A stretch of DNA of 64,000 nt, taken from positions 62,001 through 126,000 of the forward strand of contig JACRDU010000009.1 of the NCBI GenBank assembly GCA_016218495.1, written 5' to 3'. The DNA is from Elusimicrobiota bacterium. Its GTDB lineage: Bacteria; Elusimicrobiota; Elusimicrobia; UBA1565. Positions within the stretch are counted from its first letter, which is position 1; the number at the start of each line of letters is the position of its first letter. The position numbers and the translations under genes were made by a program. The notes beneath the pieces are model-generated. The model did not search any database. It was not told the DNA's origin and was given only the letters and a program-made list of their open reading frames with translations. Shown here in pieces: positions 568-50,496 of the stretch.

Positions 568-1483
568 CGGCCGCCGCCGCGCGGCCAAGATAGACCTCAA
601 GCTCGGCTACGCCTGCGACCATCAGTGCCTCTTCTGCGTGCAGGGAGACCTGCGCCGGCGCTTCCCCGAGCCCCGCTCCGCCCCCGACCTGATCGCAGCG
701 ATGCGGGCGGGCCGGGCGAAGGCCGACTCCATCGTCTTCACCGGAGGGGAGCCCACCGTCTATCCCTACCTGCCCGAGCTGGTGCGCTACGCCCGGCTGC
801 TCGGCTACTCGCGCGTGCAGATCCAGTCCAACGGCCGGCGGTTCAGCGAGCGCCCGTTCGCGGCCGCGCTGGTGGAGGCGGGGGCCACCGAGTTCGCCCT
901 GTCGCTGCACGGCTCCACGCCCTCCGTCCACGACGGGCTGACCGACGTGCCCGGCAGCTTCGAGCGGACCTGGGCGGGCATCACCGGCCTGCTCGGCATG
1001 GGGCAGCGCGTGATGACCAACAGCGTGGTCACGCGCGGGAACGCCGGCGACCTCCCGGCGCTCGCCGCGCTCCTGGCCGGCGCCGGGGTGCGGCATATCC
1101 AGTTCGCCTTCGTCCATATCGTCGGCAAGGCCGCCGAGAACGCCGCCCTCATCGTGCCGCGCAAGGCCGCGGCGGTGCCCTTCATCCTGCGTGCGGTGGA
1201 TGCGGGGCGGGCCCTGGGAGCCCGGGTCATGACCGAGGCCGTCCCGCTCTGCCTGCTCAAGGGCTACGAGGACTGCGCGGCCGAGACGGAGATGCCCGTG
1301 ATGACCATCCATCACGCCGACGGCACGGTCTGCGAGGACTTCACGCGCGAGCGCCTCGAGGTCCAGAAGCGCAAGGGGCCGGCCTGCGGCGGCTGCGTGC
1401 ACGACCCGGTCTGCGAAGGGCCTTGGCACGAGTACCCCGAGCTCTTCGGCTGGGGCGAGTTCGTCCCGGTGCCCGCGCCATGA
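497..1483 (+). CDS. Radical SAM enzyme with twitch/SPASM-like C-terminus (paralog 1 of 3)
   Basis: The 328-residue product has the radical-SAM motif CxxxCxxC at C40, C44 and C47, the GGEP motif typical of the family at about residue 80, and a C-terminal C-x2-C-x5-C set (C297, C300, C306) that should bind an auxiliary iron-sulfur cluster. Such enzymes modify peptides in RiPP pathways. The only standard start is ATG 497, inside the His-Xaa-Ser repeat of the preceding gene, giving a Thr/Ala/Pro-rich N-terminal extension; by comparison with paralog 2 the conserved domain begins near position 590. Translation may therefore couple to the stop of the repeat gene with a non-standard start. It overlaps the next gene by ATGA. 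Confidence 0.85.
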   Translation: MDPTARTARTAPTVPTVPTAAGPDGRRRAAKIDLKLGYACDHQCLFCVQGDLRRRFPEPRSAPDLIAAMRAGRAKADSIVFTGGEPTVYPYLPELVRYARLLGYSRVQIQSNGRRFSERPFAAALVEAGATEFALSLHGSTPSVHDGLTDVPGSFERTWAGITGLLGMGQRVMTNSVVTRGNAGDLPALAALLAGAGVRHIQFAFVHIVGKAAENAALIVPRKAAAVPFILRAVDAGRALGARVMTEAVPLCLLKGYEDCAAETEMPVMTIHHADGTVCEDFTRERLEVQKRKGPACGGCVHDPVCEGPWHEYPELFGWGEFVPVPAP

Positions 1484-2394
1484 AGAAGTTTGTGGCCTTC
1501 ACCGGCTACGCCTGCAACAACCGCTGCGGGTTCTGCGTCCACCTGCGGCGCCGCGCGCTCCCGCAGCGCACCACCCGCGAGGTCGTCGCCGCGATGGCGA
1601 GCGCCCGCCGCGACGGCTGCGACGCCCTGGAGCTGGTGGGGGGAGAGGTCACCATCCGCCCCGACTTCCTGACCTTGGTCGGGACGGCCCGCGCGCTGGG
1701 GTTCCCACGCGTGGCGCTGGCCAGCAACGGGCGCATGTTCTCCCGGCCGGGCTTCGCGCGGGCGGCGGTGGCGGCCGGCCTGACCGACGTGATGCTGTCG
1801 CTGCACGGGGACGGGGCGGAGCTCCACGACGGGCTCACCGGAGCGGCGGGCAACTTCAAGGAGCTCATCGCGGGGCTCGCCGCGCTCAAGGCGGCGGGCG
1901 TGGGGCGCCTGTCGGTCAACAGCACTGTGGTCCGGCGCAACGTCAGGGCGCTGCCGGCCCTGGCCTACCTGCTCGTCGCCCTCGAGGTGCGCTCGGCCGA
2001 GTTCATCTTCGTGGACCCGAGCGTGGGCGGGGCGGCGGAGGACTTCGAGGAGTGGGTCCCCCGGCTGGGGGAGGCGGCCTCGGCGATGCGCCGCGCGCTG
2101 GCCATCGGGCGGGAGGCCGGCACCTCGGACTGGTGCGTGCGCTACGTTCCGCTGTGCCTGTTCCGGGACTGGCTGGGCCAGGTCAGCGAGCTGCGCGAGG
2201 CCCGGGCCTTCTCCTCGGTGCGGCATTGGGCGCCCGATTTCGTCAACGACGACGTGCAGGGCTCGCGCCGCGACGGCGCGCGGGTCCGTACCGCACGCTG
2301 CCGCGGCTGCCGCCTCGAGCCCGAGTGCGAAGGCGTCTGGCGCGGCTACGCCGAGCGGCGGGGCGATTCCGAGCTGGAGCCGGTCCATGGTTGA
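1480..2394 (+). CDS. Radical SAM enzyme with twitch/SPASM-like C-terminus (paralog 2 of 3)
   Basis: A 304-residue radical-SAM protein. CxxxCxxC lies at C12, C16 and C19 straight after the start, and the C-terminal C-x2-C-x5-C at C274, C277 and C283, followed by Glu-Gly and an aromatic residue as in paralog 1. The second half of the fold carries the Leu-His-Gly segment (LSLHG, about residue 107) that is also in paralog 1. The ATG overlaps the previous stop (ATGA at 1480-1483), so the two are translationally coupled. Presumed to act with the neighbouring paralogs on the repeat peptide; which residue each one modifies cannot be told from sequence. Confidence 0.85.
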   Translation: MKKFVAFTGYACNNRCGFCVHLRRRALPQRTTREVVAAMASARRDGCDALELVGGEVTIRPDFLTLVGTARALGFPRVALASNGRMFSRPGFARAAVAAGLTDVMLSLHGDGAELHDGLTGAAGNFKELIAGLAALKAAGVGRLSVNSTVVRRNVRALPALAYLLVALEVRSAEFIFVDPSVGGAAEDFEEWVPRLGEAASAMRRALAIGREAGTSDWCVRYVPLCLFRDWLGQVSELREARAFSSVRHWAPDFVNDDVQGSRRDGARVRTARCRGCRLEPECEGVWRGYAERRGDSELEPVHG

Positions 2395-4566: not shown

Positions 4567-5833
4567 GCGAGGCGAGGGGGCGGGACCGCCTGCTGACCAC
4601 CGGGGCCGCGCTGGACGCCGGTCCCCTCCTGGTCATCGACCGGGCGCGCGGCGCCTTCGTTTGGGACGAGGCCGGGCGCCGGTATATCGACGCGCTGTCG
4701 GGCTGCTGGTGCGTCCCGGTCGGCTACGGGCGCCCGGAGGTGGTCGGCCGGCTCGCCGCTCAGCTGAGGAGGGTCTCCTACACGCCGCTGGACTGGCGCT
4801 CCCACCGGCCCGCGTTGGAGCTGGCGGACGCGCTGGTGGAGAAGGCCCCCAAGGGGCTCGAGCGGGTCTTCTTCTGCTCGGGGGGCTCGGAGGGCGTGGC
4901 CACGGCCTTGAAGCTGGCCCGCCTGTCCGGACGCTCCCGGACCGGGGACTCGCGGACGGTCTTCATGTACCGGCGGGGCTCCTATCACGGGGCGACGCTG
5001 GGTGCGACCAGCGTGACGGGCTTCGAGGAGCTGCGCCGCGGCCTGGGACCGCTCTTGCCCGACACGCTGGAGGTGGAGCCTCCCGACTGCGCGAGCTGCC
5101 CATTCGGGGCGAGCCCGGAACGCTGCGGGCTGCAGTGCGCGGGCGCCGTCGAGGAGGCCATCAAGCGCCTGGGCCCTGGGCGCCTGGCGGCCATGGTGGC
5201 GGAGCCCGTGGCCGCGGCCGGGAGGGTCCAAGTGCCCCCCGCGGGGTATTGGCCCCGGGTGGCCGCCGCCCTGCGCGGAGCGGGCGCCTTGCTCATCCTC
5301 GACGAGGTCCTGACGGGGCTGGGACGCACGGGACGCTGGTTCGCCGCCGAGCATTGGGGGATCCAGCCGGACATCCTGGTGGTCGGGAAAGGCCTGGCCG
5401 GCGGGGTCGCCCCGTTGGGGGCGGTCCTGATGACGCGCCAGGTCTCCGAGCTGTTCCGTTCGGAGCCGTTCGCCCACGGCTTCACCTTCGGAGGGCATCC
5501 CGCCTCCTGCGCGGCGGCCCTGGCCACCCTGCAGCTGCTGGGCGGGCTCATCGGGTCGGTGGAGGCCAGGGGGTCCGCCTGCGTGAGCTGCTCGAGCGGC
5601 GTGCGGGAGCTCACGGCGAGGTGGCCGGCATCGGCCTTCTGGCCAGCGTTTCGGTGCGGCTGTCCCCTGAGCGGCGCCGGAAGCTGCGCGAGCTCACGCT
5701 GCAAGAGGGGGTGCTGTGCGGCATCGAGGCGGATGCCCTGCAATTCGCCCCGCCGCTGACCGTGACTCAGAGCCAGCTGGCCGGCATCTGCGGGGCGGTC
5801 GGTCGTGCCCTGGCCCGGTTGGCAAAAGCGTAG
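4563..5833 (+). CDS. Class III aminotransferase (PLP), with apparent -1 frameshift
   Basis: The protein matches the omega-aminotransferase / BioA family: a GGSEGVATALKLAR-type cofactor segment, SYHGATLGATS, LILDEVLTGLGRTG with the Asp that contacts the PLP ring, and the catalytic Lys in VVGKGLAGG. It starts at GTG 4563, overlapping the previous stop. The first frame loses similarity at about 5570, and the family's C-terminal part continues in the -1 frame to the stop at 5833. The switch point is a run of five G (5569-5573); six would restore one frame. It may be an assembly error, a recent mutation or a true -1 frameshift. Its substrate is unknown; the position suggests it works with the radical-SAM genes. 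Confidence 0.75.
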
Positions 5834-5867
5834 CTATACGGACATAGGCCTCCTTTATATAAGGAAA

Positions 5868-6830
5868 ATGCTTAAAGAAAACGACGATTTGAGCTGGTAT
5901 GCGCGCAAGGCGGACGGCCTGAGGCACGGGGTGGGAGTGGCCCGGGCGGCCGAAGACAAGGGCCGCGAGCAGCGCATCGTGCGTCTCCTAGGTGCTCTGG
6001 AAGCGGAGGGCATCAAGGGGAGCATCGAACGGCGCACCCTCTACACGAAGGCCTTGCCGCCGGGCTGTCGGGGTTGCCTGGGGGGGAAGGGCACGAACGC
6101 CTTCGTCACCGGCCTATGCACCCGGGACTGCTTCTTCTGCTTCAACCAGAAGCCGCGCACCGACGAACTGGTCGTGCACGGGATCAAGCTGGCGGAGCCC
6201 GAGGACGCCGGCGATGTCGTCCGGCGCTACGCGCTGCGCAGCGTCGGCGTGAGCGGGGGAGAGCCGACCCTGCGCCCCGAGCGCCTGCTCCGCCTGGTCC
6301 GGGCCCTGCGCGCCCTGCCCGATAGGGTCCGCATCGACCTCTACACCAACGGCGACAAGCTGACCGACGGCCTGCTCGCCGAGCTCAAGGGAGCCGGCCT
6401 CGACGCGCTGCGCTTCAACGCCGTGGCCCGGGACTTCGACCTCGAGCCCATCGGGCGCGCCCTGAAGTTCTTCGCCGAGACCGCCGTCGAGGTGCCTGTG
6501 GTGCCGGACCGGATGCCGGAGATGGAGGAGCTCGTGCTGCGGCTCGACGCCATGGGCGTCCCCTTCATGAACATCCACGAGCTCTTCGCCTGCCGGGAGA
6601 ACGCGGGCAGGGTCAGCGAACAAGGCTACGCCTCGGGGGGGGAGGCGTCCTCGGGCCTCCTCTGGGAGCCGGTGGCCGAGGGCGACGAAGCGGCCTTGAG
6701 CCTGCTCCTGTTCGCCCTGCGCCGCGCCGAAAGGCTTTCCGTCTACTACTGCTCGTGCCGGACCCAGCAGGACATCTCCAGCCGCGGCCTGCGCCGCCGC
6801 ATCCGTCTGGCCGGCGGCGGGGAGCGGTGA
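5868..6830 (+). CDS. Radical SAM protein (fourth in cluster)
   Basis: A 320-residue radical-SAM protein with CxxxCxxC at C84, C88 and C91, preceded by a CxxC pair (C67, C70) and a Gly-rich GGKGTNAF segment, and a GGEPTLRP motif further on. It is not a close paralog of the three enzymes upstream; the extra N-terminal cysteines and a late C-S-C (near the C-terminus) could hold a second cluster. ATG 5868 is chosen because AAGGA lies 5' of it and the earlier in-frame starts lie within the aminotransferase gene. It follows the aminotransferase by 34 bases and overlaps the flavoprotein gene by GTGA, so all are probably one operon. Confidence 0.8.
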   Translation: MLKENDDLSWYARKADGLRHGVGVARAAEDKGREQRIVRLLGALEAEGIKGSIERRTLYTKALPPGCRGCLGGKGTNAFVTGLCTRDCFFCFNQKPRTDELVVHGIKLAEPEDAGDVVRRYALRSVGVSGGEPTLRPERLLRLVRALRALPDRVRIDLYTNGDKLTDGLLAELKGAGLDALRFNAVARDFDLEPIGRALKFFAETAVEVPVVPDRMPEMEELVLRLDAMGVPFMNIHELFACRENAGRVSEQGYASGGEASSGLLWEPVAEGDEAALSLLLFALRRAERLSVYYCSCRTQQDISSRGLRRRIRLAGGGER

Positions 6831-11591: not shown

Positions 11592-12359
11592 ATGGCCAGC
11601 GGCAGCAACGACCCGGTGCGCGATTTCATCCGGGAGCACGGCGGCATGATCCTCAGCGTGGGGGCCATCGCCCTGTGCATCCTGGTCGCCTGGCTGATGC
11701 AGCCCGGCCGCGGGGGCGGCGCGCGCTCCGTGCCGATGTCGATTGGAGGCGCGGAGCGCCAGGCCAGCCGGTCCGCCGACTATCGGCCGGCGGGGCGGTC
11801 CTCGATGGATTTCGCGCCCAAGTGGGGGGAGCTGCCCCTCAGCCCCGAAATCGCCCCGCCCGCGCCGCAGCCCCAGGCGGACCCGGCGCCGGAGCCCGAG
11901 CCGGAGGCCCCGCCGATACCGCAGACGCCCGAGCCCGAGGCGCCGCCGCCCCCGAAGGCCGAAGGGCTGGTCAAGAAGGCCGCCGGAGGCGGCGGCGCCG
12001 CCGGCCCGGCCCCGGTGATGACGGCCGTCCCGACCTTCGAGAAGCGCGAGGCCCGGGAGCGGGGAGAGGCCGCGGAGCCCGGGGCGCCCGCCGCCGCGGC
12101 GGGTTCGGTCGAGGCCAGGCGGGCCCGCACGATGCGCGCCATCATCATGGCCGGACAGGACGGTTCGCTGCAGCGCTACGGGCTCGACAAGGAGACGCTC
12201 TACCGCCTGGAGAAGCTGGGCGCCGAGCTTTCCCAGTACGTGCAGCCGGACGGCACCTTCAAGATCAGCGAGAAGGACGCCAAGATCCTGAACAACCAGC
12301 TGGGCGTCATCCGCGGCAAGGACGACAAGCTGCCCGGCCCCAGCGGCTTCGGCTACTAG
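11592..12359 (+). CDS. Single-pass membrane protein with Pro-rich linker, unknown function
   Basis: 255 residues. One membrane segment lies at about residues 20-36, followed by a long linker rich in Pro, Glu and Ala (about residues 85-145) and a charged C-terminal domain (about 180-255). This TonB/TolA-like layout, a membrane anchor plus extended linker plus small domain, suggests that the C-terminal domain reaches across the periplasm, but I see no TonB-type motif. It has its own promoter and no partner on the same strand. It overlaps the stop of the converging OsmC gene by 4 bases. Confidence 0.7.
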   Translation: MASGSNDPVRDFIREHGGMILSVGAIALCILVAWLMQPGRGGGARSVPMSIGGAERQASRSADYRPAGRSSMDFAPKWGELPLSPEIAPPAPQPQADPAPEPEPEAPPIPQTPEPEAPPPPKAEGLVKKAAGGGGAAGPAPVMTAVPTFEKREARERGEAAEPGAPAAAAGSVEARRARTMRAIIMAGQDGSLQRYGLDKETLYRLEKLGAELSQYVQPDGTFKISEKDAKILNNQLGVIRGKDDKLPGPSGFGY

Positions 12360-12790
12360 GCCGTCACCACCTCGACCTCGAGCTCCGGCGGGGTCTTCAG
12401 CGCGTTGGAGACGATACAGTGCTTCTTCGCCTTCTTGAGCAGCTCGGCGCCGCGCTCGGCGTCGGCGGGGGCGAGGGCGAGCCGCACGCGCTGCACGACG
12501 CGGGTGAAGGCCAGCCCGTCGGCGGTCTTATCGAGGGTCCCTTCCGAGGCGGACTGGTAGCCCGGGACCTCGAGCCTCGCGCGTTCGGCCAGGGCCAGGA
12601 AGGTCGTCATCAGGCAGAGCTCCGCCGCGCTGAGGAGCAGGGCCTCCGGGCTCCAGGCCCCGTCGGGCCCGTCGAACTGGGGCGGCGGCGCCCCGTCGAG
12701 CGGGCGCGCCTCGCCGTATTTCAGGACGGCCCGCCGGCCCTCCGTGCGGTGCAGGGAGGTCTCGTAGCGGTGGGGGAAGGGGTGCGGCAT
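12356..12790 (-). CDS. OsmC/Ohr family protein
   Basis: 144 residues. The pattern SPEALLLSAAELCLMTTFLALA followed about 55 residues later by KKAKKHCIVSNAL matches the OsmC fold with its two redox-active cysteines. OsmC and Ohr proteins reduce organic hydroperoxides; other members act on persulfides. It is the last gene of the minus-strand pump operon, 1 base after the YgaP-like gene. The YgaP-like membrane protein and OsmC together hint at sulfur or thiol chemistry, an inference. Confidence 0.85.
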   Translation of the reverse strand: MPHPFPHRYETSLHRTEGRRAVLKYGEARPLDGAPPPQFDGPDGAWSPEALLLSAAELCLMTTFLALAERARLEVPGYQSASEGTLDKTADGLAFTRVVQRVRLALAPADAERGAELLKKAKKHCIVSNALKTPPELEVEVVTA

Positions 12791-12791
12791 G

Positions 12792-12992
12792 TCAGCCTCC
12801 GCAGCAGCCGTTCTTGGACCCGTCCTTGAGCAGGCGGGTCGCCGGGCAGAAGCCCGTGAAGGCCGATTGTATCAGGTTGGCCCCGACGAAGGCGGTGAAC
12901 CAGAGCCATTTCGGGCTGTGGTAATGCGCCAGCAGCAGGCTGGCCAGGATGTTCGACCCGGCCAGGACGCGGACCTTGTTCTCGACGGTCAT
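12792..12992 (-). CDS. YgaP-like transmembrane protein (DUF2892)
   Basis: 66 residues with two hydrophobic segments and a typical DUF2892 pattern (early VRVLAGSNIL, later FTGFCPATRLLK). The tail ends in a Cys-Cys-Gly-Gly sequence that could bind a metal or carry sulfur. DUF2892 is the membrane part of the rhodanese YgaP; here the rhodanese domain is missing. Its start overlaps the stop of the RND pump gene (ATGA), so it is translationally coupled to it. Confidence 0.8.
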   Translation of the reverse strand: MTVENKVRVLAGSNILASLLLAHYHSPKWLWFTAFVGANLIQSAFTGFCPATRLLKDGSKNGCCGG

Positions 12993-15900
12993 GAAGCCTC
13001 CGGGAAACGGCTCTTGAGCATGAAGTAGAGGACGGGGACGGCCGTGCGCGACAGCAGGGTGGACGCCACCTCGCCGGAGATGAGGGCCACGGCCAGCCCC
13101 TGGAAGATGGGGTCGAAGAGGATGACCACGGCGCCGACGACGACGGCGGCGGCCGTCAGCAGCATGGGCCTGAAGCGGACCACGCCGGCGTCGACCACCG
13201 CGTCGCGCAGGGACATGCCTTCGGACATGCGCAGCTCGGCGAAGTCGATGAGGATGATGGAGTTGCGCACCACGATGCCCGCCCCGGCGATGAAGCCTAT
13301 CATCGAGGTTGCGGTGAAGAACGCGCCCAGCCCCCAGTGGGCCGGCAGGATGCCCACCAGGGTCAGCGGGATGGGGACCATGATGACGAGCGGAACCGTG
13401 AACGAGCGGAACCACGCCACGACGAGGACGTACATCAGCACCAATACCAGGGCGAAGGCCGCGCCCAAGTCGCGGAAGACCTCGTAGGTGATCTGCCATT
13501 CGCCGTCCCACTTCAGCGCGGTCTGCGAAGGGTCCGAGGGCTGCTCGGCGAAATATTGGACCAGGTCGATGCCCATGGATTCGGCCAGGTCCTGGATAGG
13601 GCCTTTGAGCTCGAGCAGTGCGTAGACGGGGCTCTCCGCCTGCCCGGCCACATCGGCGATGACGTAGCTGACCTCCCTCTGGTTCTTGCGGTAGACGGGT
13701 TCGTCGGCCAGGAGGGTCCGCCGCTGCACGAGGTCGGAAAGCCTCAGCAAAGTGCCGTTCGGCGAGACGAGGGGCATGCGCAGGACGCCGTCCAGGCCCT
13801 GGCGCGAGACGGGCGGGAGCCTCAGGCGTATGGCGGTGGGTTCGAACTCCCCTGTGTCGTGGGCTGAGCCGGCTTCCATGCCGGAGAGCGCCAAGGCCGC
13901 CGTCTGGGCGACCTGGACGGGCGGGATGCCGTTGAGGGTGGCTTTCGCCCTGTCCACAACCAGCCTTTCCAGGGGTTGGGCGTCGGGCAGATAGGTGTCC
14001 ACATCCACGATGCCGGGAGACTCGCCGAGCAGGGCCATGAGCGCCTCGGAGAACGCCCGGCGCTTCGCGGCGTCCGGGGCGTAGACCTCGAACACCAAAG
14101 TCGAGAGCACGGGAGGGCCGGGAGGGACCTCGGCCACCTGGACGCGGGCCCCGTAGCGCGCGGCGGCCGCGGCGACCGCCGGGCGCACGGCTTTGGCTAT
14201 GGCATGGCTCTGCCGCGAGCGGTGGTGCCGTCCCGCCAGGTTCACCACGATGTCGGCCTGATTGGGGCGCAGGCGCAGGAAGTAATGCCGGACCAGGCCG
14301 TTGAAGTTGTACGGGGCCGCGGCGCCGGCATATTCGGTCACCGCCGCCGCTTCGGGGACCTTGCGCAGGACCGCGCCCACCTCGGAGGCGGCCTGGACCG
14401 TGCGCTCCAGCGACGTGCCCTCGGGCAGGGTCAAGACGACTTCGAACTCGTCCTTGTCGTCGAACGGGAGCATCTTGACCGTCACCATCTTGAGCGGCAC
14501 GAGCGCGGCGGCCGCCGCCAGCAGGAGCAGCATCCCGCCGAGGTAGGCCGCCCGGGTCGGGGCGTGGTCGAGGATGCGGCCCATCATCGACCGGTACATG
14601 CGGTCGAGCCGGCCGTCCTGATGCTCGGCGTGGGCGTGCTTGGGGGGGAACAGCCTGAGGAGCCCCGCGAAGGCCCACGGGGAGACGATGAAGGCCACGG
14701 CCAGGGAGAACAGCATGGCCATGGACGCTCCCACCGGGATGGGGCGCATGTAGGGGCCCATCAGCCCGCTGACGAAGGCCCTCGGCAGGATGGCGGCGAT
14801 GACGGTCCAGGTGGCCAGCAAGGTGGGATTGCCGACCTCGTCGACGGCGTCCACCGCGACCCGGCTGACGTCGCGGCCGTCTCCCATCATGTAGTGGCGG
14901 TGGATGTTCTCTATGACGACTATGGCGTCGTCGACCAGGATGCCGATGGAGAAGATCAGGGCGAACAGGGTGATGCGGTTGAGGGTGTAGCCGGAGAGGT
15001 GGTAGATGAGCAGGGTCAGGGCCAGCGTGACGGGGATGGCCACGAGGACGACGACGGCCTCCCTCCAGCCCAGGGTCAGCCAGATGAGGAAGGTGACCGA
15101 GCCGGTGGCCAGCAGCATGTGATAGAGCAGCTCGTCGGACTTCTGCTTGGCGGTCTCCCCGTAGTCGCGCGTCACGGTCCATTCCACGTCCTCCAGGACC
15201 CCCGCGGCCTTGCGGGCCGCCAGGCGCTCGAGGACGGTCCGGGTGACCAGGGTGGCGTTGGCCCCCCGCCGCTTGGAGACCGAGAGGGTGACGGCGGCGG
15301 CCCGGCCCTCCTTGCCGCGGCTGGTGATGACGGAGACCTCGTCCTCGTCGGGCCCGTCCACGACCTGCGCCACATCGCCCAGACGGACCGGTCGTCCGTC
15401 CGAGATGCCCAGCACCAGGGCGCGCAGGTCGTCGGCCGTGCGCACCAGGGCGTCGGTCTCGACGAGGACGGAGCGTCCGGGCGCGGCGGCGGCGCCGGCC
15501 GGCAGCCTGACGTCGGAGGCCGACACCCGGCCGAGGACCTCGAGGGCGGTGAGGCGGCGGCGGGCCAGCGCATCGGGGTCCAGGTGGACCAGGAACTGGC
15601 GCCGGCGGCCGCCGATGAGGGAGGTCTCGGCCACATCCGCGACCGAGGCGGCCTCGGCGCGGAAGCCGGCGACGCGGCGGCGGAGCTCCAGCGGGTCGAG
15701 GCTCGGGCTCCAGAAGGTGACGGCGAGAACGGGCACATCGTCGATGAGGCGCGGCTTGATCAGAGGCTGCAGGGCCCCGGGGGCCAGCTGGTCGAGGTTG
15801 GCGAAGGCCTTGGTGTACACGCGCGTCATCGCCTCTTCCGGGTTCGTGCCCACCTTGAAGCGCACGATGAACAGCGCCATGCCGGGCTCCGACGTCGAAT

Positions 15901-22205: not shown

Positions 22206-22868
22206 CTATTTGCGCGAGCGGGAGAGCTGCGCCAAGGCGGCCTGGGTCCGGAGCGCGCGCGATGTGCCCTGCACTTCGGCCAGCATCCGCACCAGCGCCG
22301 GGGCGTCATCGATGTCCTCGAGCGGGTCGAGGAGGTGCACCGGCCAGCGCAGCTCGGCGGCGCGCGCCGTGGTGGCCTCGAGCACCTTGGGCCCGGACCA
22401 GGGGATGTCGTCGAAGAGGGTCGGCGCGGGCTCCCTCAGGCCTATCAGGTAGTACCCGCCGTCCCGGGCCGGGCCCAGCACGACGGGGCCGGCGGCCAGG
22501 CGCGAGAACGCCTCCTCGATGCGCTCCGGAGGCAGGTGGGGCGAGTCGGTGCCGATGACCACGACGCGGTCCGCCCCGTCGATGAAGGCCTTCCCGGTCG
22601 CCGCCGCCAGCCGGCGGCCGAGGTCGGCCCCTTCCTGGGGGAACCAGTCCGCAGCCGCCGTCCCCAGCCAGGACGGGTCGGGCCAATCCTCGTGGGCCGC
22701 GTAGGCCACCACGGCCTGCGCCCCCTGCGCGGCCTGCGCCGCGGCCAGGGAATCCGCCGCGAAGGCCCGGTACAGCGCGGCCGCCTGCTCCGCGCTGAAC
22801 GGCGGCGTCAGCCGCGTCTTCACCCCCCCCGGCACCGGCGCCTTCGCGAACACAATGACCACTTTCAT
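22206..22868 (-). CDS. DUF2064 / TIGR04282-type transferase (rSAM/selenodomain-associated transferase 1)
   Basis: 220 residues starting VVIVFAKAPVPGGVKTRL, with VIGTDSPHLP and GPARDGGYYLIGL further on: the CofC-like nucleotidyltransferase fold called 'rSAM/selenodomain-associated transferase 1'. The family is found next to radical-SAM proteins of the arsenic/selenium type, as is the case here. ATG 22868 is the last codon before a large palindromic element that separates it from its upstream operon partner. Confidence 0.85.
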   Translation of the reverse strand: MKVVIVFAKAPVPGGVKTRLTPPFSAEQAAALYRAFAADSLAAAQAAQGAQAVVAYAAHEDWPDPSWLGTAAADWFPQEGADLGRRLAAATGKAFIDGADRVVVIGTDSPHLPPERIEEAFSRLAAGPVVLGPARDGGYYLIGLREPAPTLFDDIPWSGPKVLEATTARAAELRWPVHLLDPLEDIDDAPALVRMLAEVQGTSRALRTQAALAQLSRSRK

Positions 22869-22961
22869 GGTGTCAGGGGACAACTCTCGCAACTCCCGCA
22901 ACTGTCGGGGATAACTTATCCCCAGGAATTGCGACAGTTGCGAGAGTTGTGCCCTGGCACC
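22869..22961. repeat. Large palindromic element (26-bp arms, two mismatches)
   Basis: 22869-22894 is inversely repeated at 22936-22961 with two mismatches; inside lie further CAACTGTCG / CGACAGTTG and GGGATAAcTTATCCC pairings. The element fills the whole gap between the two transferase genes and touches the start codon of the downstream one. It shares its outer GGTGTCAG / CTGGCACC ends with the element at 8583-8647. In the mRNA it would form a long hairpin just before a start codon and so may lower or tune translation. Confidence 0.75.
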
Positions 22962-22964
22962 GAG

Positions 22965-23639
22965 TCATCGGTACCACCGGGTTAGGCGGGCGGGGGGGAC
23001 GCCTAGGTGCCAGAGCGCGATAAGGGCGTTGTTGCGGAGGGCGCCCTTTATGGCGCCGGAGGTCTGGTAGCGGCGAGGAGAGGTGATGGCTTGCTGGGGA
23101 AGGCAGACCAGTCGGCCTTGGGGGCGGATGCGGCGGGCCAGCTCGTATTCCTCCATGAGCGGGACGTCGGGGAAGCCTCCGCAGGCCAGATAGGCGGTGC
23201 GCAGCACGGCGATGCCCTGGTCCCCGTGCGGCACTCCGGTCAGTCGCTGCCGCCAAGCCGCGCCTCGCTCGAGCCAGCGGAAGACCGGTTGCGCGCTGTC
23301 GAAGCGCAGGGAGAAGGAGACGGCGGCGGGGCTGGGAAGGCTGGAGAAGGCCTGCAGCAGCATGGCCGGCCAGCCGTCGGGCAGGCGGGTGTCGGCGTGG
23401 AGGAAGACCACGACCTTGCCCGAAGACGCCTTGAGCCCTTCATCCATCTGGAAGGCGCGTCCCTTCCTCCGGCAGCGGACGAGGACATGGGCGGCGGCGC
23501 GTGCGGCGGAGAGGGTCAGCCCTCCCGAGCCCCCGTCGGAGACGACGAGCTCGGCCTCCGGCGCCTGCTCTTTGAGCAGCGTCAGAGTCCGCGCCAGGGT
23601 CTCGGGCTCGTCGAGCGTCGGTATGACCACGCTGAGCAT
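22965..23639 (-). CDS. Glycosyltransferase family 2, TIGR04283-type (rSAM/selenodomain-associated transferase 2)
   Basis: 224 residues beginning LSVVIPTLDEPETLARTL with VVSDGGSGG (the donor-binding Asp) and VVFLHADTRLPDGW, and GDQGIAVLR and FPDVPLMEEYEL later: a short GT2 fold of the 'rSAM/selenodomain-associated transferase 2' type. It pairs with the preceding transferase gene downstream and is divergent from the radical-SAM/ArsM fusion gene. The sugar and acceptor are unknown; in arsenosugar clusters such a transferase could add the sugar or build a linked lipid. Confidence 0.85.
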   Translation of the reverse strand: MLSVVIPTLDEPETLARTLTLLKEQAPEAELVVSDGGSGGLTLSAARAAAHVLVRCRRKGRAFQMDEGLKASSGKVVVFLHADTRLPDGWPAMLLQAFSSLPSPAAVSFSLRFDSAQPVFRWLERGAAWRQRLTGVPHGDQGIAVLRTAYLACGGFPDVPLMEEYELARRIRPQGRLVCLPQQAITSPRRYQTSGAIKGALRNNALIALWHLGVPPARLTRWYR

Positions 23640-23648
23640 GCGGGTTAG

Positions 23649-23679
23649 TGTAACAAAGGGAGGGATTGATACACTCATG
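23649..23679 (+). promoter_or_regulatory. Putative ECF promoter of the radical-SAM/ArsM gene
   Basis: TGTAAC (23649-23654), 18-base spacer, ACTCATG (23673-23679). It matches the motif found in front of the second ECF sigma gene and four other genes, with identical spacing; only the last base differs. The ATG at 23696 follows 16 bases later after a good Shine-Dalgarno. Confidence 0.6.
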
Positions 23680-23695
23680 TCGGAGCGGAGGGAAG

Positions 23696-26203
23696 ATGAT
23701 CGAATTGAAGCCGGAGCTCGTGCTGCATGCCCCGCGCTGGAGCTCGTTCCAGCGCGGCGAGCTGCAAATGTTCCTCGACCCGGAGCGGCCGCATTGGGCG
23801 GCGGTGGACGAGCGCGGCGCGTTCCTGCTGGCGCGGCTCGACGGCCGGACCACGGCCGGACGTCTCATGGACGACTATCGCTCCCGCTTCGCCCGCCCCA
23901 CGGGCCAGGCGTGGGTGGAGGTCCACGACTTCCTGCGCGACGCGCTGCGCCACGGCCTCGTCTCGACGAAGCCCTTCAGTCCGGCGCCCTACCCCGGCCG
24001 CGCGGACCTGCTCAAGCCCACGGTCCTGCGCGAGCTCTGGCTGCATCTGCTGCAGGCCTGCAACCTCTCCTGCACCCACTGCCTCGTCTCCTCGGGTCCA
24101 AAGGGGGAGAAGGGCGAGGACACCGCCTTCTTCAAATCGGTCATGGCGCAGGGGGCGAAGCTGGGGGTGCACCGGTTCTACTTCACCGGCGGCGAGCCGA
24201 TGGTGCGTCCCGACTTCGCCGAACTGGCGGCCTATGCGGTCAAGGACCTGGGCGCCGAGCTCATCGTCCTGACCAACGCCACCTTGGTGTCGGGCGAGCG
24301 CCTCAAGGCCCTGGAGGGTCTGGACCGGGAGAAGGTGCGCTTCCAGGTCAGCCTCGACGGGGCCAGCGCCCCCGTCAACGACGCCATCCGCGGCGCCGGA
24401 GTGTTCGCCTCGGCCTGTGCGGGCCTCCGGACGCTGGCCGGCCTGGGCTTCAGCACCTCCCTGACCGCCGCCGTGACCCGGGAGAACCTGGCCGACCTGG
24501 AGGGCCTGCCCGCCCTGGCAAAGGAGCTGGGGGCAGGTTCCCTGCACCTCATGTGGCTGCATAAGCGCGGCCGGGCCGTCCAGGAAGCCGGCTTCCCGAG
24601 CACGGCCGAGTTGACCGCCCTATATAGGAAAGTGCGTGACGGCAGCGCGGCCGCGGGGGTGCGATTCGACAACGACGAGGCGTTCCGGCAGCGTCTGCGC
24701 GGCACGCCCGGCGTGAAGTACGACCTGTCGAACGCCTGCTGGGAGAGCCTGTGCGTGTACCAGGACGGCGGCGTCTACCCCACGGCGGCTACGGCCGGGC
24801 ACGAGGAGCTCCTCCTGGGGTCCGCCAAGGACGCCACCCTGGAGAACCTATGGAAGGACAGCCCGGCGGCGCAGGCCTGGCGGCGCCGGAGCCTGGTTGA
24901 GATGGCCTCCGCCGCCGACTCTTTCCGGTTCCTGACCGGGGGCGGAGACGCCGAGCATGCCTACTTCTTCTCCGGCGGGAAGTCCGACCCGTATCACCCC
25001 GTCTATGTCGAAGCGCTCAAGGACGCAATGGAGGCGCTGGGCCGCTCCCGCTCCCAGGGGTTCAACGCGCGCACCGGCTATGCCGGAGCCGTGGTCGGGT
25101 ACGCCATGGGCGAGGAACAGCTGGCCTGCGAGGCGCCCGGTAAGACCAAGGAGTGGCTCTCCGTCGCCGACCCGGTGCGGACCCTGCACTCCAACTGCGT
25201 GCTCTCCTTCGACGTCCACAAGCCCTATCGGGTCATCTCGGATTTCTACGGCGACGCCGCCGAGGAGCCGCAGGCCGACCTGTGCTGCCCGGTGAAGTAC
25301 GACGCCGCCGACACATCCCACATCCCCAAGGAGGTGCTGGAGCGCTTCTACGGCTGCGGCTCGCCAGTGGGCTCGGCGGGCCTGCGCCCCGGGGAGACCT
25401 TCGCCGACCTGGGTTCGGGCGGCGGCATCGACTGCTTCATCGCCGCCAAGAAGGTCGGCCCGCAGGGCAAGGTCGTCGGCGTCGACATGACCGACCGCAT
25501 GCTGGCCGTGGCGAACCGCAACCGGCCCCTCGTGGCCGAAAGCCTCGGCTACGCGAACGTGGAATTCAGGAAGGGGACGATGGAGGCCTGCCCCATCGAC
25601 GATAAGGCGGTGGACTGCCTGAGCTCGAACTGCGTGCTGAACCTATCGCCCGACAAGCGCAAGGTCTTCGCCGAGATGTGGCGGGTGCTCAAGGACCATG
25701 GGCGCATCTGCGTGGCCGACATCGTCTCCGAGGTCAAGGTCCCGGCGGCCCCGCAGGCCGACGAGCGGCTATGGGGGGAGTGCATCACCGGGGCGCTCTC
25801 GGAGGAGGAGTTCCTCTCGGAGCTCGAGCGCGCCGGCTTCTACGGCCTGCGCATCCTGAAGAAGACCTTCTGGAAGACGGTGCAGGGCTTCGCCTTCCAC
25901 TCCGTCACCGTGACCGGGCATAAGTTCCTCAAGAAGGACGGCTGCCGGCACATCGGGCACAAGGCGGTCTATCTCGGCCCCTGGAAGTCCGTCATCGACG
26001 AGGAGGGCCACCTCTTCCCGCGCAATGAAGAGGTGGAGGTCTGCACCGACACGGCGGCCAAGCTCGCCAACGGCCCGTATGCCGGACAGTTCCGCCTCCT
26101 GCAGCCCTCCGGAGCGGCGATGCCCACAGGGCTAACCACCATGTCATTGACGACGTCAGAGAGCGGCGGGGCCTGCTGCGACCCGTCCAAGGGCTGCTGC
26201 TAG
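23696..26203 (+). CDS. Radical SAM protein fused to an ArsM-like arsenite methyltransferase
   Basis: 835 residues. Residues 1-105 resemble a PqqD-type domain. The radical-SAM domain has C122, C126, C129 (CNLSCTHC), then GGEP. A degenerate SPASM region follows to about 400. From about 525 comes a methyltransferase with the ArsM signature: FYGCG, the SAM site DLGSGGG (about 571), SNCVLNL and ECITGAL, whose cysteines correspond to the three that bind As(III). The tail is Cys-rich and ends GACCDPSKGCC. Separate ArsM and radical-SAM genes act in arsenosugar and arsinothricin synthesis; a single fused chain is new to me. ATG 23696 follows GGAGGGAAG. Selenium or another thiophilic element is an alternative substrate. 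Confidence 0.8.
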   Translation: MIELKPELVLHAPRWSSFQRGELQMFLDPERPHWAAVDERGAFLLARLDGRTTAGRLMDDYRSRFARPTGQAWVEVHDFLRDALRHGLVSTKPFSPAPYPGRADLLKPTVLRELWLHLLQACNLSCTHCLVSSGPKGEKGEDTAFFKSVMAQGAKLGVHRFYFTGGEPMVRPDFAELAAYAVKDLGAELIVLTNATLVSGERLKALEGLDREKVRFQVSLDGASAPVNDAIRGAGVFASACAGLRTLAGLGFSTSLTAAVTRENLADLEGLPALAKELGAGSLHLMWLHKRGRAVQEAGFPSTAELTALYRKVRDGSAAAGVRFDNDEAFRQRLRGTPGVKYDLSNACWESLCVYQDGGVYPTAATAGHEELLLGSAKDATLENLWKDSPAAQAWRRRSLVEMASAADSFRFLTGGGDAEHAYFFSGGKSDPYHPVYVEALKDAMEALGRSRSQGFNARTGYAGAVVGYAMGEEQLACEAPGKTKEWLSVADPVRTLHSNCVLSFDVHKPYRVISDFYGDAAEEPQADLCCPVKYDAADTSHIPKEVLERFYGCGSPVGSAGLRPGETFADLGSGGGIDCFIAAKKVGPQGKVVGVDMTDRMLAVANRNRPLVAESLGYANVEFRKGTMEACPIDDKAVDCLSSNCVLNLSPDKRKVFAEMWRVLKDHGRICVADIVSEVKVPAAPQADERLWGECITGALSEEEFLSELERAGFYGLRILKKTFWKTVQGFAFHSVTVTGHKFLKKDGCRHIGHKAVYLGPWKSVIDEEGHLFPRNEEVEVCTDTAAKLANGPYAGQFRLLQPSGAAMPTGLTTMSLTTSESGGACCDPSKGCC

Positions 26204-26207
26204 GACC

Positions 26208-26816
26208 ATGAAGGCCGCTCTAGCCGCCGCGCTGGCCTGGACGGCCGGATTGGGCCTGGCCGGACAGGCGGCCTTCGTCCTCATCTATATCGTCGCCTGC
26301 GTGGCCTTCCTTCCCGGCTCGGTGCTGACCTTGGGCGCCGGCGCGGCCTTCGGGCTGTGGCGGGGCTTCGTCCTGGTCTCCATCGCCTCCACGCTGGGGG
26401 CCTGCGCGGCGATGCTGGTGGGCCGGTACTTCTTGCGCGACTGGGTGGCGGGGAAGATGGGACGATTCCCTGTGTTCGCCGCGGTCCGGAGCGCCGTGGC
26501 CTCCGAGGGCTGGAAGGTCGTGGGCCTGACGCGTCTCTCCCCGGTCCTGCCCTTCAGCCTGCTCAACTACGCCTACGGGCTGACCGATGTCCCCATGGGC
26601 GAGTACGCGTTGGCGTCCTGGGTCGGCATGATGCCGGGGACCTTCCTCTTCGTCTACCTGGGCGCGGCCGCGGGCGAGGCCGCACGGGGAGGGGCTCACG
26701 CGCGCAGCCCGCTTGAATGGGCGCTCTACGCCGCCGGGCTGGCGGCTACCGCCTTGGCCGCCTGGCTGGTGGGACGAAAGGCCAAGGAAGCGCTGAACAA
26801 GCGCGTGGAGGCGTGA
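26208..26816 (+). CDS. TVP38/TMEM64 (DedA-like) membrane protein
   Basis: 202 residues with about six hydrophobic segments and the family patterns FLPGSVLTLGAGAAFG and, after a loop, LTRLSPVLPFSLLNYAYG and MMPGTFLFVYLG. TVP38/TMEM64 proteins are membrane proteins of uncertain role (lipid scrambling or metalloid handling) that often sit beside arsenic/selenium radical-SAM genes. It starts 4 bases after the fusion gene and overlaps the next gene by 1 base (TGATG). Confidence 0.87.
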   Translation: MKAALAAALAWTAGLGLAGQAAFVLIYIVACVAFLPGSVLTLGAGAAFGLWRGFVLVSIASTLGACAAMLVGRYFLRDWVAGKMGRFPVFAAVRSAVASEGWKVVGLTRLSPVLPFSLLNYAYGLTDVPMGEYALASWVGMMPGTFLFVYLGAAAGEAARGGAHARSPLEWALYAAGLAATALAAWLVGRKAKEALNKRVEA

Positions 26817-28321
26817 TGGCCGAAGTCCTGCCGCTCGACGAACACAACAAGCTCCTCCTTTCCCGGGTGCATCCGGCCGGCTGGGTGAGCCCTGAGCCGG
26901 CCCAGCGCTATAACCTCGTCGTGCTGGGCGCGGGCACCGCAGGGCTCGTCACGGCCATCGGAGCGGCCGGGATCGGGGCCAAGGTGGCGCTGGTGGAACG
27001 GCATCTCATGGGCGGCGACTGTTTGAACGTCGGCTGCGTGCCCTCGAAGGCCCTCATCCGGGCCTCGCGCGCCGCTCACTCCGTCCGGACGGCGGGGAGG
27101 TTCGGCGTGAAGGCGGAGGGCGTCGCGGTGGATTTCGCGGCGGTCATGGAACGCCTCCGGCGCCTGCGCGCCGAAATCAGCGTCAACGATTCGGCGGCGC
27201 GTTACAAAGAGAAGGGCGTCGACGTCTTCCTCGGCGAGGCCCGTTTTTCAGGCCCGGACACGGTCTCCGTGGGAGGCCGGACCCTGCGCTTCGCCAAGGC
27301 CGTCATCGCCACCGGCGCGCGCGCCGTGGAGCTGCCCATCCCCGGGCTCAAGGAGACGGGATTCCTCACCAACGAGACCGTGTTCAACCTGACCGAACTG
27401 CCCAGACGCCTGGCCGTCATAGGGGCGGGCCCCATCGGCTGCGAGCTGGCCCAGGCCTTCCGGCGCCTGGGCTCCGAGGTGCACCTGCTGGAGGCCATGG
27501 GGCAGATCCTCATCCGCGAGGACAGGGACGCCGCCAAGGTGGTCGAAGAGTCCTTCAGGCGCGAAGGGGTGATGTTCTCCTGCGACCACGACGTGACCCG
27601 TGTGGAGAAGCGGGGGACGGAGAAGGTCGTCTTCACCAAGTGCGACTGTCACCCGGACGGCCTCGCCGTCGACGAGATATTGATAGGCGTCGGCCGCGCC
27701 CCCAATGTGGAAGGCCTGAACCTCGAGGGCGTGGGCGTGGAGTATTCCAAGTCCGGCGTGAAGGTGGACGACTTCCTGCGCACCACGAACCAGCGGGTCT
27801 ACGCGGCCGGCGACATCTGCTTGGGCCCCAAGTTCACCCACACGGCCGACTTCTCGGCCCGCATCGTCATCCAGAACGCGCTCTTCCACGGCTGCAAGCG
27901 CCTGAGCGCCTTGACCGTGCCCTGGTGCACCTACACAGACCCGGAGATCGCCCACGTCGGCCTCTATGAGAAGGACGCGGCAGCCAAGGGCCTGAAGGTG
28001 AGGACCTTCGTCCAGGAGATGAAGGACGTGGACCGGGCCGTCTTGGACGGCGAGACCGAGGGCTTCGTGAAGGTCCATGTGGAGGAGGGCAGCGACCGCA
28101 TCTTGGGAGCCACCGTCGTCGCGGGGCATGCCGGAGACCTCATCAGCGAATTCTCCGTGGCCATGGCGGCGCAGATGGGCCTGGGCTCCATCGCCTCCGT
28201 CATCCATCCCTATCCCACCCAGGCCGAGGGCATCCGCCGCGCCGGCGACGCCTACAACCGCACGCGCCTGACGCCCTTCGTGAAGGGCCTGCTGTCCTCC
28301 TGGCTGCGCTGGAGCCTCTAG
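26816..28321 (+). CDS. Mercuric-reductase-like pyridine nucleotide-disulfide oxidoreductase
   Basis: 501 residues. The FAD site LVVLGAGTAGLVTAIGAAG, the redox pair C69/C74 in GGDCLNVGCVPSKAL, the NAD(P)H site VIGAGPIGCELAQ and the C-terminal HPYPTQAEG with the catalytic His are all present, as in dihydrolipoamide dehydrogenase, glutathione reductase and MerA. The N-terminal NmerA domain and the C-terminal Cys-Cys of true MerA are missing, so mercury reduction is unlikely. In this operon it may reduce a thiol or metalloid intermediate. It is the third gene behind the ECF-type promoter. Confidence 0.85.
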   Translation: MAEVLPLDEHNKLLLSRVHPAGWVSPEPAQRYNLVVLGAGTAGLVTAIGAAGIGAKVALVERHLMGGDCLNVGCVPSKALIRASRAAHSVRTAGRFGVKAEGVAVDFAAVMERLRRLRAEISVNDSAARYKEKGVDVFLGEARFSGPDTVSVGGRTLRFAKAVIATGARAVELPIPGLKETGFLTNETVFNLTELPRRLAVIGAGPIGCELAQAFRRLGSEVHLLEAMGQILIREDRDAAKVVEESFRREGVMFSCDHDVTRVEKRGTEKVVFTKCDCHPDGLAVDEILIGVGRAPNVEGLNLEGVGVEYSKSGVKVDDFLRTTNQRVYAAGDICLGPKFTHTADFSARIVIQNALFHGCKRLSALTVPWCTYTDPEIAHVGLYEKDAAAKGLKVRTFVQEMKDVDRAVLDGETEGFVKVHVEEGSDRILGATVVAGHAGDLISEFSVAMAAQMGLGSIASVIHPYPTQAEGIRRAGDAYNRTRLTPFVKGLLSSWLRWSL

Positions 28322-33769: not shown

Positions 33770-34597
33770 ATGAAGACCCAGGCCCTCAAGACCTTCGCTC
33801 TGCTCGTCTGCTTCGCGGCCCCCTCTTGGGCCGCGCCGTTCGACAGGACCTTCGCCCGCTACGACAGCCTCCTAAAGGAGCATGTTTCGAAGGGGCGGGT
33901 CGATTACGCGGCCCTGAAGAAGGCCCCCGGCGGCCTCGACGCTGTCCTGGCCGAACTGGCCGGAGCGGCGCCGGAGGAATACGGCGCGTGGAAGGAACCC
34001 GACCGCATCGCCTTCTGGCTCAACGCCTACAACGCCCAGACCCTGAAGGCGATCGTCGACAACTACCCCATCGAGGCGCGGGGGCTGGCGGCGCTGCGCT
34101 TCCCCAAGAACAGCATCCGGCAGATCCCCGGGGTCTGGGACAAGCGAGGCTTCGTGGTGATGGGACGGACCATGACTTTGGACGGCATCGAACATTCCGT
34201 CCTGCGCAAGGAGTTCAAGGAGCCCCGCGCCCACATGGCCTTGGTCTGCGCCTCCATCGGCTGCCCGCCGCTGCGGGCCGAGGCGTACCGGGGCGACCGT
34301 CTGGAGGCTCAGTTGGAGGACCAGGCCCGGACCTTCCTGTCGGACAAGGCCAAGTTCCGCATCGACCAGGCGGCCGCGCGCGTCGGGCTCTCGCCCATCT
34401 TCAAGTGGTTCGGGGGGGACTTCGTGGGACGCTGGGGCGGGGCGCCGGCCTACGGCACGCGGACTCCGGAGCAGAGCGCCGTCCTGCGCTTCATCTCCGA
34501 GCGCGTAGGCCCCCAGCAAAGGGAATTCCTCGCGGCGGGCGTCTTCACCGTCGAATTCCTCGATTACGACTGGTCGCTCAACGAAAAGGGCCGCTAG
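33770..34597 (+). CDS. Exported DUF547 protein
   Basis: 275 residues. A signal peptide ends ...APSWAAPFD. The mature part matches DUF547: YDSLLKEHVSKGRVDYAAL near the start, FWLNAYNAQTLKAIVDNYP, GRTMTLDGIEHSVLRKEF, HMALVCASIGCPPLRAEAY and a final FLDYDWSLN. The domain has a papain-like look with conserved Cys, His and Asn but its function is unknown. It carries a motif-perfect ECF promoter and is followed by a small zinc-ribbon gene. Confidence 0.88.
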   Translation: MKTQALKTFALLVCFAAPSWAAPFDRTFARYDSLLKEHVSKGRVDYAALKKAPGGLDAVLAELAGAAPEEYGAWKEPDRIAFWLNAYNAQTLKAIVDNYPIEARGLAALRFPKNSIRQIPGVWDKRGFVVMGRTMTLDGIEHSVLRKEFKEPRAHMALVCASIGCPPLRAEAYRGDRLEAQLEDQARTFLSDKAKFRIDQAAARVGLSPIFKWFGGDFVGRWGGAPAYGTRTPEQSAVLRFISERVGPQQREFLAAGVFTVEFLDYDWSLNEKGR

Positions 34598-49437: not shown

Positions 49438-50496
49438 CCGGAGGGCGCAGGCGGCGAAGAGGGCCGCGGCGGGCAGAGTCACGACCCAGGCCGCCAGCAT
49501 CGTCTTGACCGTGTCCCGGTTCAGCGCGCCGGAACCCCGCCTAAGGCCCAGACCGATGACGGCGCCCGAGGCCACGTGGGTCGTCGATACCGGCAGGCCC
49601 CAGCGCGAGGCGAAGGCGACGAGGAAGGCAGTCACGGCGTTGGCGGCCAGGCCCTGCTCCGGTTCCATGGGCGTCACGCGGCGGCCCAGCGTCTCGGTGA
49701 CCCGCCGCCCGGCCCAGAGCCCGCCGGCCCCCATCGCCAACGCCCCCAGCGCGAAGGCCGGCGCGCCGAGGCCGCCTCCGCCTGCCGCCAGCGCCAGGAC
49801 CTTCGGGGCGTCGTTCATGCCGCGAGCGAAGCAGGTCAGTCCCGCCGCCAGCCAATGGGCCGACTCGGCCAGGTCCGGCGCCAGCCAGACTCGGCCGGCG
49901 CAGTCTCTGCGCCGTGCGGCCGAGTACGCATCGAGCAGCGCCACGGGGGCGAAGCCGGAGGCCAGGGCGAGCGACGGCTCGGTCACGCAGAGGCAGCGCC
50001 CTCGGAGGAAGCCGGCCGCACGGGAGGCCAGGGGCCACGCCAGCCAGAGCAGGGCCGCTGCGACGAACGGGCCGGCGGCCAGGGAAACCAGGACTTTGCG
50101 CGCCATCGCCTCCCATAGGACGGCGTGGGGTCCGGCCGAGGCCCAGCCCGCCCCGCAGAGCGCTCCGACCAGGGCATGGGTGGTGGAGACCGGCCAGCCG
50201 CGCCAGGAGGCGAGGAGGACCCAGAGCGACGCGCCGGCCCCGACCGCGGCGAGCATCTCCGGGCCGAGGGCGTCGGCCGACAGGATTCCGCTTCCGGAGA
50301 AGGTCTTCAGCAGTCCCGTCGACACCCCGGCGGCGGCCACGGCTCCCGCCGCCGTCCAGGCCGTCCCCCAGAGGGCGGCCCGGCGCGGCGAGGCCGCGCC
50401 GGAGCCGACCAAAGTGGCGATGCCTTTGGATAGGTCGTTGGCGCCGTTGGCGGCGGCCAGAGCGACGGCCAGCGGGAGCAATGGGGACGCGGGCAT
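49420..50496 (-). CDS. PiT-family inorganic phosphate transporter
   Basis: 358 residues, strongly hydrophobic. The two signature repeats of the family are present: ANGANDLSKGIATLVGS (about residue 16) and ARGMNDAPKVLALA (about residue 220), each followed later by a G-PVSTTHA/V segment (WPVSTTHALVGAL, LPVSTTHVASGAVIG). It should take up phosphate or metal-phosphate, and such carriers also let arsenate in. It has an ECF-type promoter with the start codon 3 bases after the -10 element. Confidence 0.92.
   Translation of the reverse strand: MPASPLLPLAVALAAANGANDLSKGIATLVGSGAASPRRAALWGTAWTAAGAVAAAGVSTGLLKTFSGSGILSADALGPEMLAAVGAGASLWVLLASWRGWPVSTTHALVGALCGAGWASAGPHAVLWEAMARKVLVSLAAGPFVAAALLWLAWPLASRAAGFLRGRCLCVTEPSLALASGFAPVALLDAYSAARRRDCAGRVWLAPDLAESAHWLAAGLTCFARGMNDAPKVLALAAGGGGLGAPAFALGALAMGAGGLWAGRRVTETLGRRVTPMEPEQGLAANAVTAFLVAFASRWGLPVSTTHVASGAVIGLGLRRGSGALNRDTVKTMLAAWVVTLPAAALFAACALRLAAPR

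Follow-up and report, generated by a model that had tools for sequence, protein, structure and literature searches.

Although arsenosugars and arsenolipids occur widely in nature, few organisms are known to make them. There are several described systems with which the locus reported here can be compared. In the pathway to arsenosugars, the first steps are carried out by two proteins: ArsM and the radical-SAM enzyme ArsS (TIGR04167), which adenosylates arsenic (as reported in PMC12159101 and PMC8552651). In the arsinothricin system (arsQML), as described in PMC8552651, an ArsM is found beside ArsL, a radical-SAM enzyme that also has a CX3CX2C motif and forms a carbon–arsenic bond. The RRE/SPASM radical-SAM peptide maturases MftC, PqqE, SuiB and SkfB combine a PqqD-like domain, a radical-SAM core and a SPASM-like region, either in one chain or in partner proteins.

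The window analysed here is the whole of a stretch of 64,000 nucleotides from an Elusimicrobiota bacterium (contig JACRDU010000009.1, positions 62,001 to 126,000, forward strand). It contains a gene in which a radical-SAM protein is joined to an ArsM-type methyltransferase. Thus, whereas ArsM and ArsS are encoded by two genes, this is one chain, with another lineage of radical-SAM domain and an additional PqqD-like domain. We put the probability at roughly two in three that the fusion is a one-chain organoarsenical synthase, standing in for ArsM and ArsS in an arsenosugar-type pathway. The architecture and the radical-SAM lineage appear to be new; the kind of pathway is known already.

The fusion gene, its cysteines and its spread

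The gene and its parts are as follows.

23687..23692, + strand: likely ribosome-binding site GGAGGG, read from the sequence, 3 bases 5′ of the ATG
23696..26203, + strand: fusion gene, 835 amino acids (PqqD-like, radical SAM, decayed SPASM, linker, ArsM-type methyltransferase)
23774..23962, + strand: PqqD-like (RRE-type) winged-helix domain, amino acids 27–89 (Pfam PF05402, 25.4 bits, cut-off 23.4)
24053..24502, + strand: radical-SAM core, amino acids 120–269, with TGGEP at 164–168 (Pfam PF04055, 68.9 bits)
24059..24082, + strand: [4Fe-4S] motif C122-X3-C126-X2-C129, unvarying in 75/75 homologues
24716..25006, + strand: SPASM-like region, amino acids 341–437
25196..25198, + strand: linker C501, in the motif HSNCVLSFDV, invariant in 75 homologues
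25223..26104, + strand: ArsM-type arsenite methyltransferase region, amino acids 510–803 (PDB 4kw7, E 1.2e-36; Foldseek 6cx6, E 1.9e-22; NF008823, 230.5 bits)
25283..25288, + strand: C530-C531, invariant in 75, presumed position of ArsM C44
25355..25357, + strand: C554, corresponding to ArsM C72 (FYGCG) in alignment with ArsM crystal structures, invariant in 75
25631..25633, + strand: C646, corresponding to ArsM C174 (SNC) in the same alignment, invariant in 75
25781..25783, + strand: C696, corresponding to ArsM C224 (GEC) in the same alignment, invariant in 75
26195..26200, + strand: C-terminal C834-C835, invariant in 75

The reading frame is uninterrupted from its ATG at 23696 to its stop at 26203, and the Pfam matches for the PqqD, radical-SAM and methyltransferase domains (the last being Methyltransf_31 at amino acids 564–714, 103.8 bits) are each above their own cut-off. 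Thus, the three domains that the sequence-only reading had placed on a single chain are indeed found there. The AlphaFold2 model, calculated from a 75-row alignment, has a mean pLDDT of 90.1 and a pTM of 0.90, so the domain arrangement is a confident prediction. The strands and helices of the model agree with the assignment of the PqqD-like domain, and the final 22 residues are disordered. When the model was compared with the PDB using Foldseek, As(III) methyltransferases were the top matches (6cx6 with a TM-score by target of 0.62), followed by RRE/SPASM radical-SAM enzymes (SkfB, SuiB, anSME, PqqE). No model in NCBIfam or Pfam spans the fusion. A literature search, most of it outside subscription journals, found neither a description of the fusion nor one of a PqqD domain with an arsenite methyltransferase or of an arsenic methyltransferase fused to a radical-SAM protein.

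Eleven cysteines are constant across 75 aligned fusion proteins: 122, 126, 129, 501, 530, 531, 554, 646, 696, 834 and 835. The first three are the radical-SAM cysteines, at the residues originally proposed and in the spacing CX3CX2C. The three ArsM-type sites recognised from the sequence are likewise present, as C554, C646 and C696, the residues having been counted by hand on the alignment with the ArsM crystal structures. C530 and C531 lie in the region expected for C44; as the alignment of the fusion with the PDB chain begins only at residue 541, their equivalence with C44 is a presumption. In comparison with the ArsM/PRK11873 arsenite methyltransferases (PDB 4fr0, 4fs8, 6cx6), the fusion shares the fold and the three arsenic-binding cysteines, but scores below every curated ArsM cut-off (NF008823, 230.5 against 263 bits; NF040538, 207.6 against 500; NF038099, 150.9 against 400), forms the C-terminal end of a larger chain and has the additional linker cysteine C501.

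The SPASM-like region has been less well conserved. The auxiliary-cluster cysteines (positions 406, 408, 414 and 434) are absent from the window's protein and from its clade; all four have been kept in 29/75 homologues, including Scalindua and many Acidobacteria (among these 29 are loci L058, L061 and L073), and the set is incomplete in 46/75. The decay of these cysteines in many members would fit a fusion that is only a detoxifying methyltransferase, with a radical-SAM half that is inactive or has another job. However, CX3CX2C and TGGEP are invariant in 75/75 fusion proteins from about 15 phyla, which is not expected of a dead domain, and this explanation is extremely improbable.

Looking for the same fusion in other genomes was the check originally proposed. 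Within the window's class, 16 near-full-length copies (including that of the window) were aligned, the others being 52–58% identical to the window's; full-length homologues in relatives and across phyla have about 45–59% identity. A tblastn scan of genomes, one for each species, found 379 relatives. This is an upper figure for fusions, since ArsM alone could be matched by one of the two patterns used. The best 80 of the 379 were fetched, and the fusion is a single open reading frame in 77 of these 80 contigs. Together with the 16 copies from the class, this rules out an assembly artefact or a chance joining. In one Gemmatimonadetes locus (L065:7614-10418) there are two open reading frames with the break between the radical-SAM and ArsM parts, due either to a sequencing error or to a true split.

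Judged by record title, the best 80 belong to about 15 phylum-level groups, and nearly all are metagenome-assembled genomes. The groups that hold the fusion are Elusimicrobia, Nitrospirae, Nitrospinota, Acidobacteria, Omnitrophota, Gemmatimonadetes, Planctomycetes (with Scalindua), Chloroflexi, Zixibacteria, Dadabacteria, Latescibacterota, Calditrichaeota, Myxococcales and other deltaproteobacteria, Armatimonadetes and Hydrogenedentota. The fusion was not found in phage records, where there were only weak radical-SAM matches, and no plasmid record covers 80% of the fusion query in one place.

Gene neighbourhoods of the fusion and of separate arsM and arsS genes

The genes in the window that belong to the neighbourhood, or that are neighbours in other genomes, are as follows.

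22206..22901, − strand: TIGR04282 (CofC-like) arsenosugar-biosynthesis glycosyltransferase (196 bits, cut-off 134)
22965..23678, − strand: TIGR04283 (GT2-type) arsenosugar-biosynthesis glycosyltransferase (219 bits, cut-off 182)
26208..26816, + strand: VTT/TVP38-type membrane protein (PF09335, 88.6 bits)
26717..28321, + strand: FAD-containing pyridine-nucleotide disulphide oxidoreductase (NF004991, 800 bits, cut-off 620)
33770..34597, + strand: DUF547 protein, a cluster partner in other copies, here 7.6 kb from the fusion
49453..50448, − strand: PHO4/PiT-type transporter domain, in many other genomes a direct neighbour of the fusion but 23 kb from it in the window

These scores bear out the transferases, TVP38 protein and flavoprotein that had been described around the fusion. 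The start of the longest TIGR04283 reading frame (23678, −) and that of the fusion (23696, +) are divergent with 17 bases between them (window 23639-23696). The second Met is probably where the transferase begins, and the true start of the FAD oxidoreductase is probably downstream of the VTT gene. Two more radical-SAM proteins are encoded in the window (568-2388 and 5766-6824), outside the fusion cluster.

In 81 fusion loci, the most frequent neighbours are PiT (37), VTT (35), the FAD oxidoreductase (23), TIGR04282 (23), TIGR04283 (22) and DUF547 (16), and all six are near the fusion in locus L057. At least one of the two transferases is seen in 35/80 fusion loci, many of the sequence stretches being short. 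Among 97 genomes of relatives, TIGR04283 is present in 16/17 genomes with the fusion and in 14/80 others (P=3e-9), and TIGR04282 in 15/17 and 21/80 (P=3e-6); these P values are optimistic, as the genomes are related. A 466-amino-acid protein without a Pfam or NCBIfam match (L061:6413-7810) lies upstream of the fusion in 16 loci, mostly on the same strand.

The same set of partners (PiT, FAD, VTT, TIGR04283, TIGR04282, DUF547) accompanies separate arsM and arsS genes. On plasmid p1 of Cupriavidus sp. KK10 all six are in one row, in the order DoxX, unknown, PiT, ArsM, ArsS, FAD, VTT, TIGR04283, TIGR04282, MTA phosphorylase (MTAP), radical SAM, DUF547; this complete arsenosugar-type operon (L140:5989-18440) is unannotated in its record. 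Three ArsS loci of Elusimicrobia (L127, L128, L137) have the partner set in part, and in Burkholderia glumae ArsS occurs with TIGR04282, TIGR04283, MTA phosphorylase and DUF547. In the plasmid cluster of B. glumae (L144:2162-3043 and 12117-13514), the MTA phosphorylase is annotated as such and, as in the Cupriavidus operon, there is another radical-SAM gene. Adenosyl-arsenicals resemble methylthioadenosine, so the presence of MTA phosphorylase in ArsS clusters fits, and it is likely to be the adenine-removing step there. Of 80 fusion loci, just 2 have a strongly scoring MTAP close by; in the window's genome it is encoded, above the cut-off, on another contig.

Apart from the split copy, none of the 80 fusion loci has a separate ArsM or ArsS, and the window's own genome contains no ArsS and no other ArsM-like match above 30 bits. 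ArsS is present in 2/67 fusion genomes checked (0/17 relatives and 2/50 further genomes). Mutual exclusion of ArsS and the fusion was considered as proof of their equivalence and rejected: among the relatives it is 0/17 against 7/80, which is not significant (P=0.35). The fusion takes the place that two separate arsenosugar genes occupy in other bacteria. Organic arsenic compounds are therefore its probable products, and its membership of an ArsS-type pathway is judged to be probable, with good confidence.

TIGR04282 and TIGR04283 take their names from their association with ArsS; NCBI now calls them, and TIGR04167, arsenosugar biosynthesis families. Their older naming was of the ‘selenodomain’ type, and with these two transferases flanking the fusion, the cluster is of the kind first so called, as the sequence-only reading had stated. 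The old name suggests that the substrate is not arsenic but selenium (or a different metalloid), and TIGR04167 still keeps the model name rSAM_SeCys. Nothing specific to selenium was found, which leaves the suggested role for it unsupported. The ArsM-type cysteines are invariant in the 75 proteins, NCBI places these families in arsenosugar biosynthesis, and the most frequent neighbour, a PiT-type transporter, would suit the uptake of arsenate; a selenium substrate is thus very improbable. The PHO4/PiT-type transporter is also found beside arsM+arsS (L140:7744-8883; L128:3323-4309), and deliberate uptake of arsenate is an idea that could be tested.

Descent of the two halves

The methyltransferase half is related to the ArsM of ArsS clusters. 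In a tree of 38 sequences of the METHYLTRANSFERASE half, the fusion copies cluster together (98/94). They are united by a 100/100 branch with two ArsM from ArsS clusters (L128, L140) and a staphylococcal plasmid ArsM; this branch sets all of them apart from the ArsM of a further group of loci (class X, see below) and from the ArsM of another ArsS locus, L127. The L127 ArsM groups with class X rather than with the fusion. Compared directly over almost the full length of ArsM, the C-terminal part included, the fusion's methyltransferase is 44% identical to L128 and 38% identical to L140. The staphylococcal sequence (Staphylococcus aureus plasmid pSA159, L143:4998-6053) is in the clade of ArsS partners, is annotated only as a methyltransferase, and adjoins genes for an ArsR-family regulator and a permease.

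The radical-SAM half has a different origin. The ArsS model TIGR04167 gives only 69.8 bits (cut-off 300), and in a tree of 53 radical-SAM domains a 100/100 branch parts the fusion from ArsS and from two groups of Elusimicrobia proteins, classes X and Y. This rules out that the half is an ArsS. ArsS sequences have TGGAPE or TGGSPE, whereas the fusion has the canonical TGGEP. The fusion copies cluster together (92/87) and fall on the same side as MftC, PqqE and further radical-SAM proteins of the genome. Among NCBIfam models, those scoring highest are mycofactocin MftC (130 bits against a cut-off of 265) and Rv1681 (114 bits against 380). From these sequence comparisons, the radical-SAM half derives from the SPASM/RiPP-maturase side; its exact sister is unsure because of several long rows in the tree.

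Classes X and Y are both on the ArsS side of that tree and, unlike the fusion, are stand-alone proteins, although they too adjoin TIGR04283/TIGR04282 (e.g. L120 and L132 for class X, L124 for class Y). Class X is paired with ArsM (L120:7174-9094, L121, L122, L123, L131, L132, L133), sometimes together with PiT, TIGR04283 and TIGR04282, and seems to be another variant of this pathway. Class Y (L124, L125, L126) adjoins the transferases, and no ArsM was seen alongside.

The relationship to peptide maturases raises the question of whether the fusion combines an arsenic methyltransferase with a radical-SAM peptide maturase, its PqqD-like domain binding a peptide and its product being either a modified peptide or an arsenical linked to a peptide. 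The PqqD domain is above its cut-off, the radical-SAM part resembles SuiB, SkfB, PqqE and anSME, and its best NCBIfam model is a mycofactocin maturase. However, within 1.2 kb of the fusion in 80 loci, no family of same-strand open reading frames of 18–90 codons recurs across phyla. Among the groups listed, the larger recurrent ones are on the opposite strand, consistent with shadows of coding genes, and the small same-strand ones are confined to Scalindua-type loci. Thus, the peptide carrier at which the PqqD-like part had been taken to hint is not supported. Furthermore, the auxiliary cysteines typical of maturases are absent or incomplete as described above. The fusion differs from MftC, PqqE, SuiB and SkfB on both counts, as well as in being joined to an ArsM, and a maturase function is quite unlikely. 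A peptide carrier and a relic of a RiPP-maturase-like ancestor would account equally well for the PqqD-like domain, and the partly kept auxiliary cysteines and the position in the tree fit a peptide-maturase-like ancestor for the radical-SAM half.

A further explanation concerns the bond that is made. The methyltransferase part could act on arsenic while the radical-SAM part makes another C–As bond, e.g. by transferring a 3-amino-3-carboxypropyl group, as happens for arsinothricin, so that the product would be a new organoarsenical. The difference in lineage from ArsS would be in keeping with this, as would the CX3CX2C motif shared with ArsL (PMC8552651); the arsQML system differs from the fusion in having separate genes and in including ArsQ. 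The methyltransferase half also scores higher with the arsinothricin ArsM model (207.6 bits) than with the arsenosugar ArsM model (150.9 bits), but the former does not discriminate, because the L128 ArsM, from an ArsS locus, scores even higher (300 bits). Sugar-type transferases, moreover, accompany the fusion. A bond of this other kind is accordingly given a low probability.

Proposed pathway and its significance

As a stand-in for ArsM and ArsS, the fusion would act as follows. The PiT transporter may take up arsenate. In the ArsM part, As(III) would be held by the conserved cysteines and then methylated, as its fold and residues suggest; that the fusion methylates arsenic is highly probable. 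The arsenic chemistry and the organoarsenical pathway anticipated by the sequence-only reading are in agreement with the invariant ArsM cysteines, the As(III) methyltransferases as best PDB matches and the flanking TIGR04282 and TIGR04283. The radical-SAM part would cleave SAM and form the next C–As bond, most likely by adding 5′-deoxyadenosyl to the methylated arsenic as ArsS does. This step is proposed by analogy of gene context, since the radical-SAM half is not an ArsS, and is held with moderate confidence. The TIGR04283 and TIGR04282 transferases would then build the sugar product, and the FAD enzyme may supply reducing power.

It is plausible that the methylated intermediate is handed from one domain of the fusion to the other. 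A more specific proposal, in which methyl transfer is followed by radical addition by the non-ArsS radical-SAM domain, with hand-over via conserved cysteines (C501 included) and a C–As product other than that of ArsS, is tentative and rather unlikely. For the question of how a methylated arsenical reaches a radical-SAM site, the fusion would offer a single-gene target.

If the fusion is a one-chain counterpart of ArsM and ArsS, one easily recognised gene would mark a second, independently recruited route to arsenosugars or arsenolipids. This route would span about 15 phyla from groundwater, soil and sea, the anammox bacterium Scalindua included; many of the phyla are uncultured and have so far not been examined for the production of organic arsenic. 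It would also mean that a radical-SAM enzyme resembling the RiPP maturases has been reused for metalloid chemistry, and that some members of the family do so without the auxiliary cluster. The natural series of fusion proteins with and without the SPASM auxiliary cysteines provides a route to the function of that cluster.
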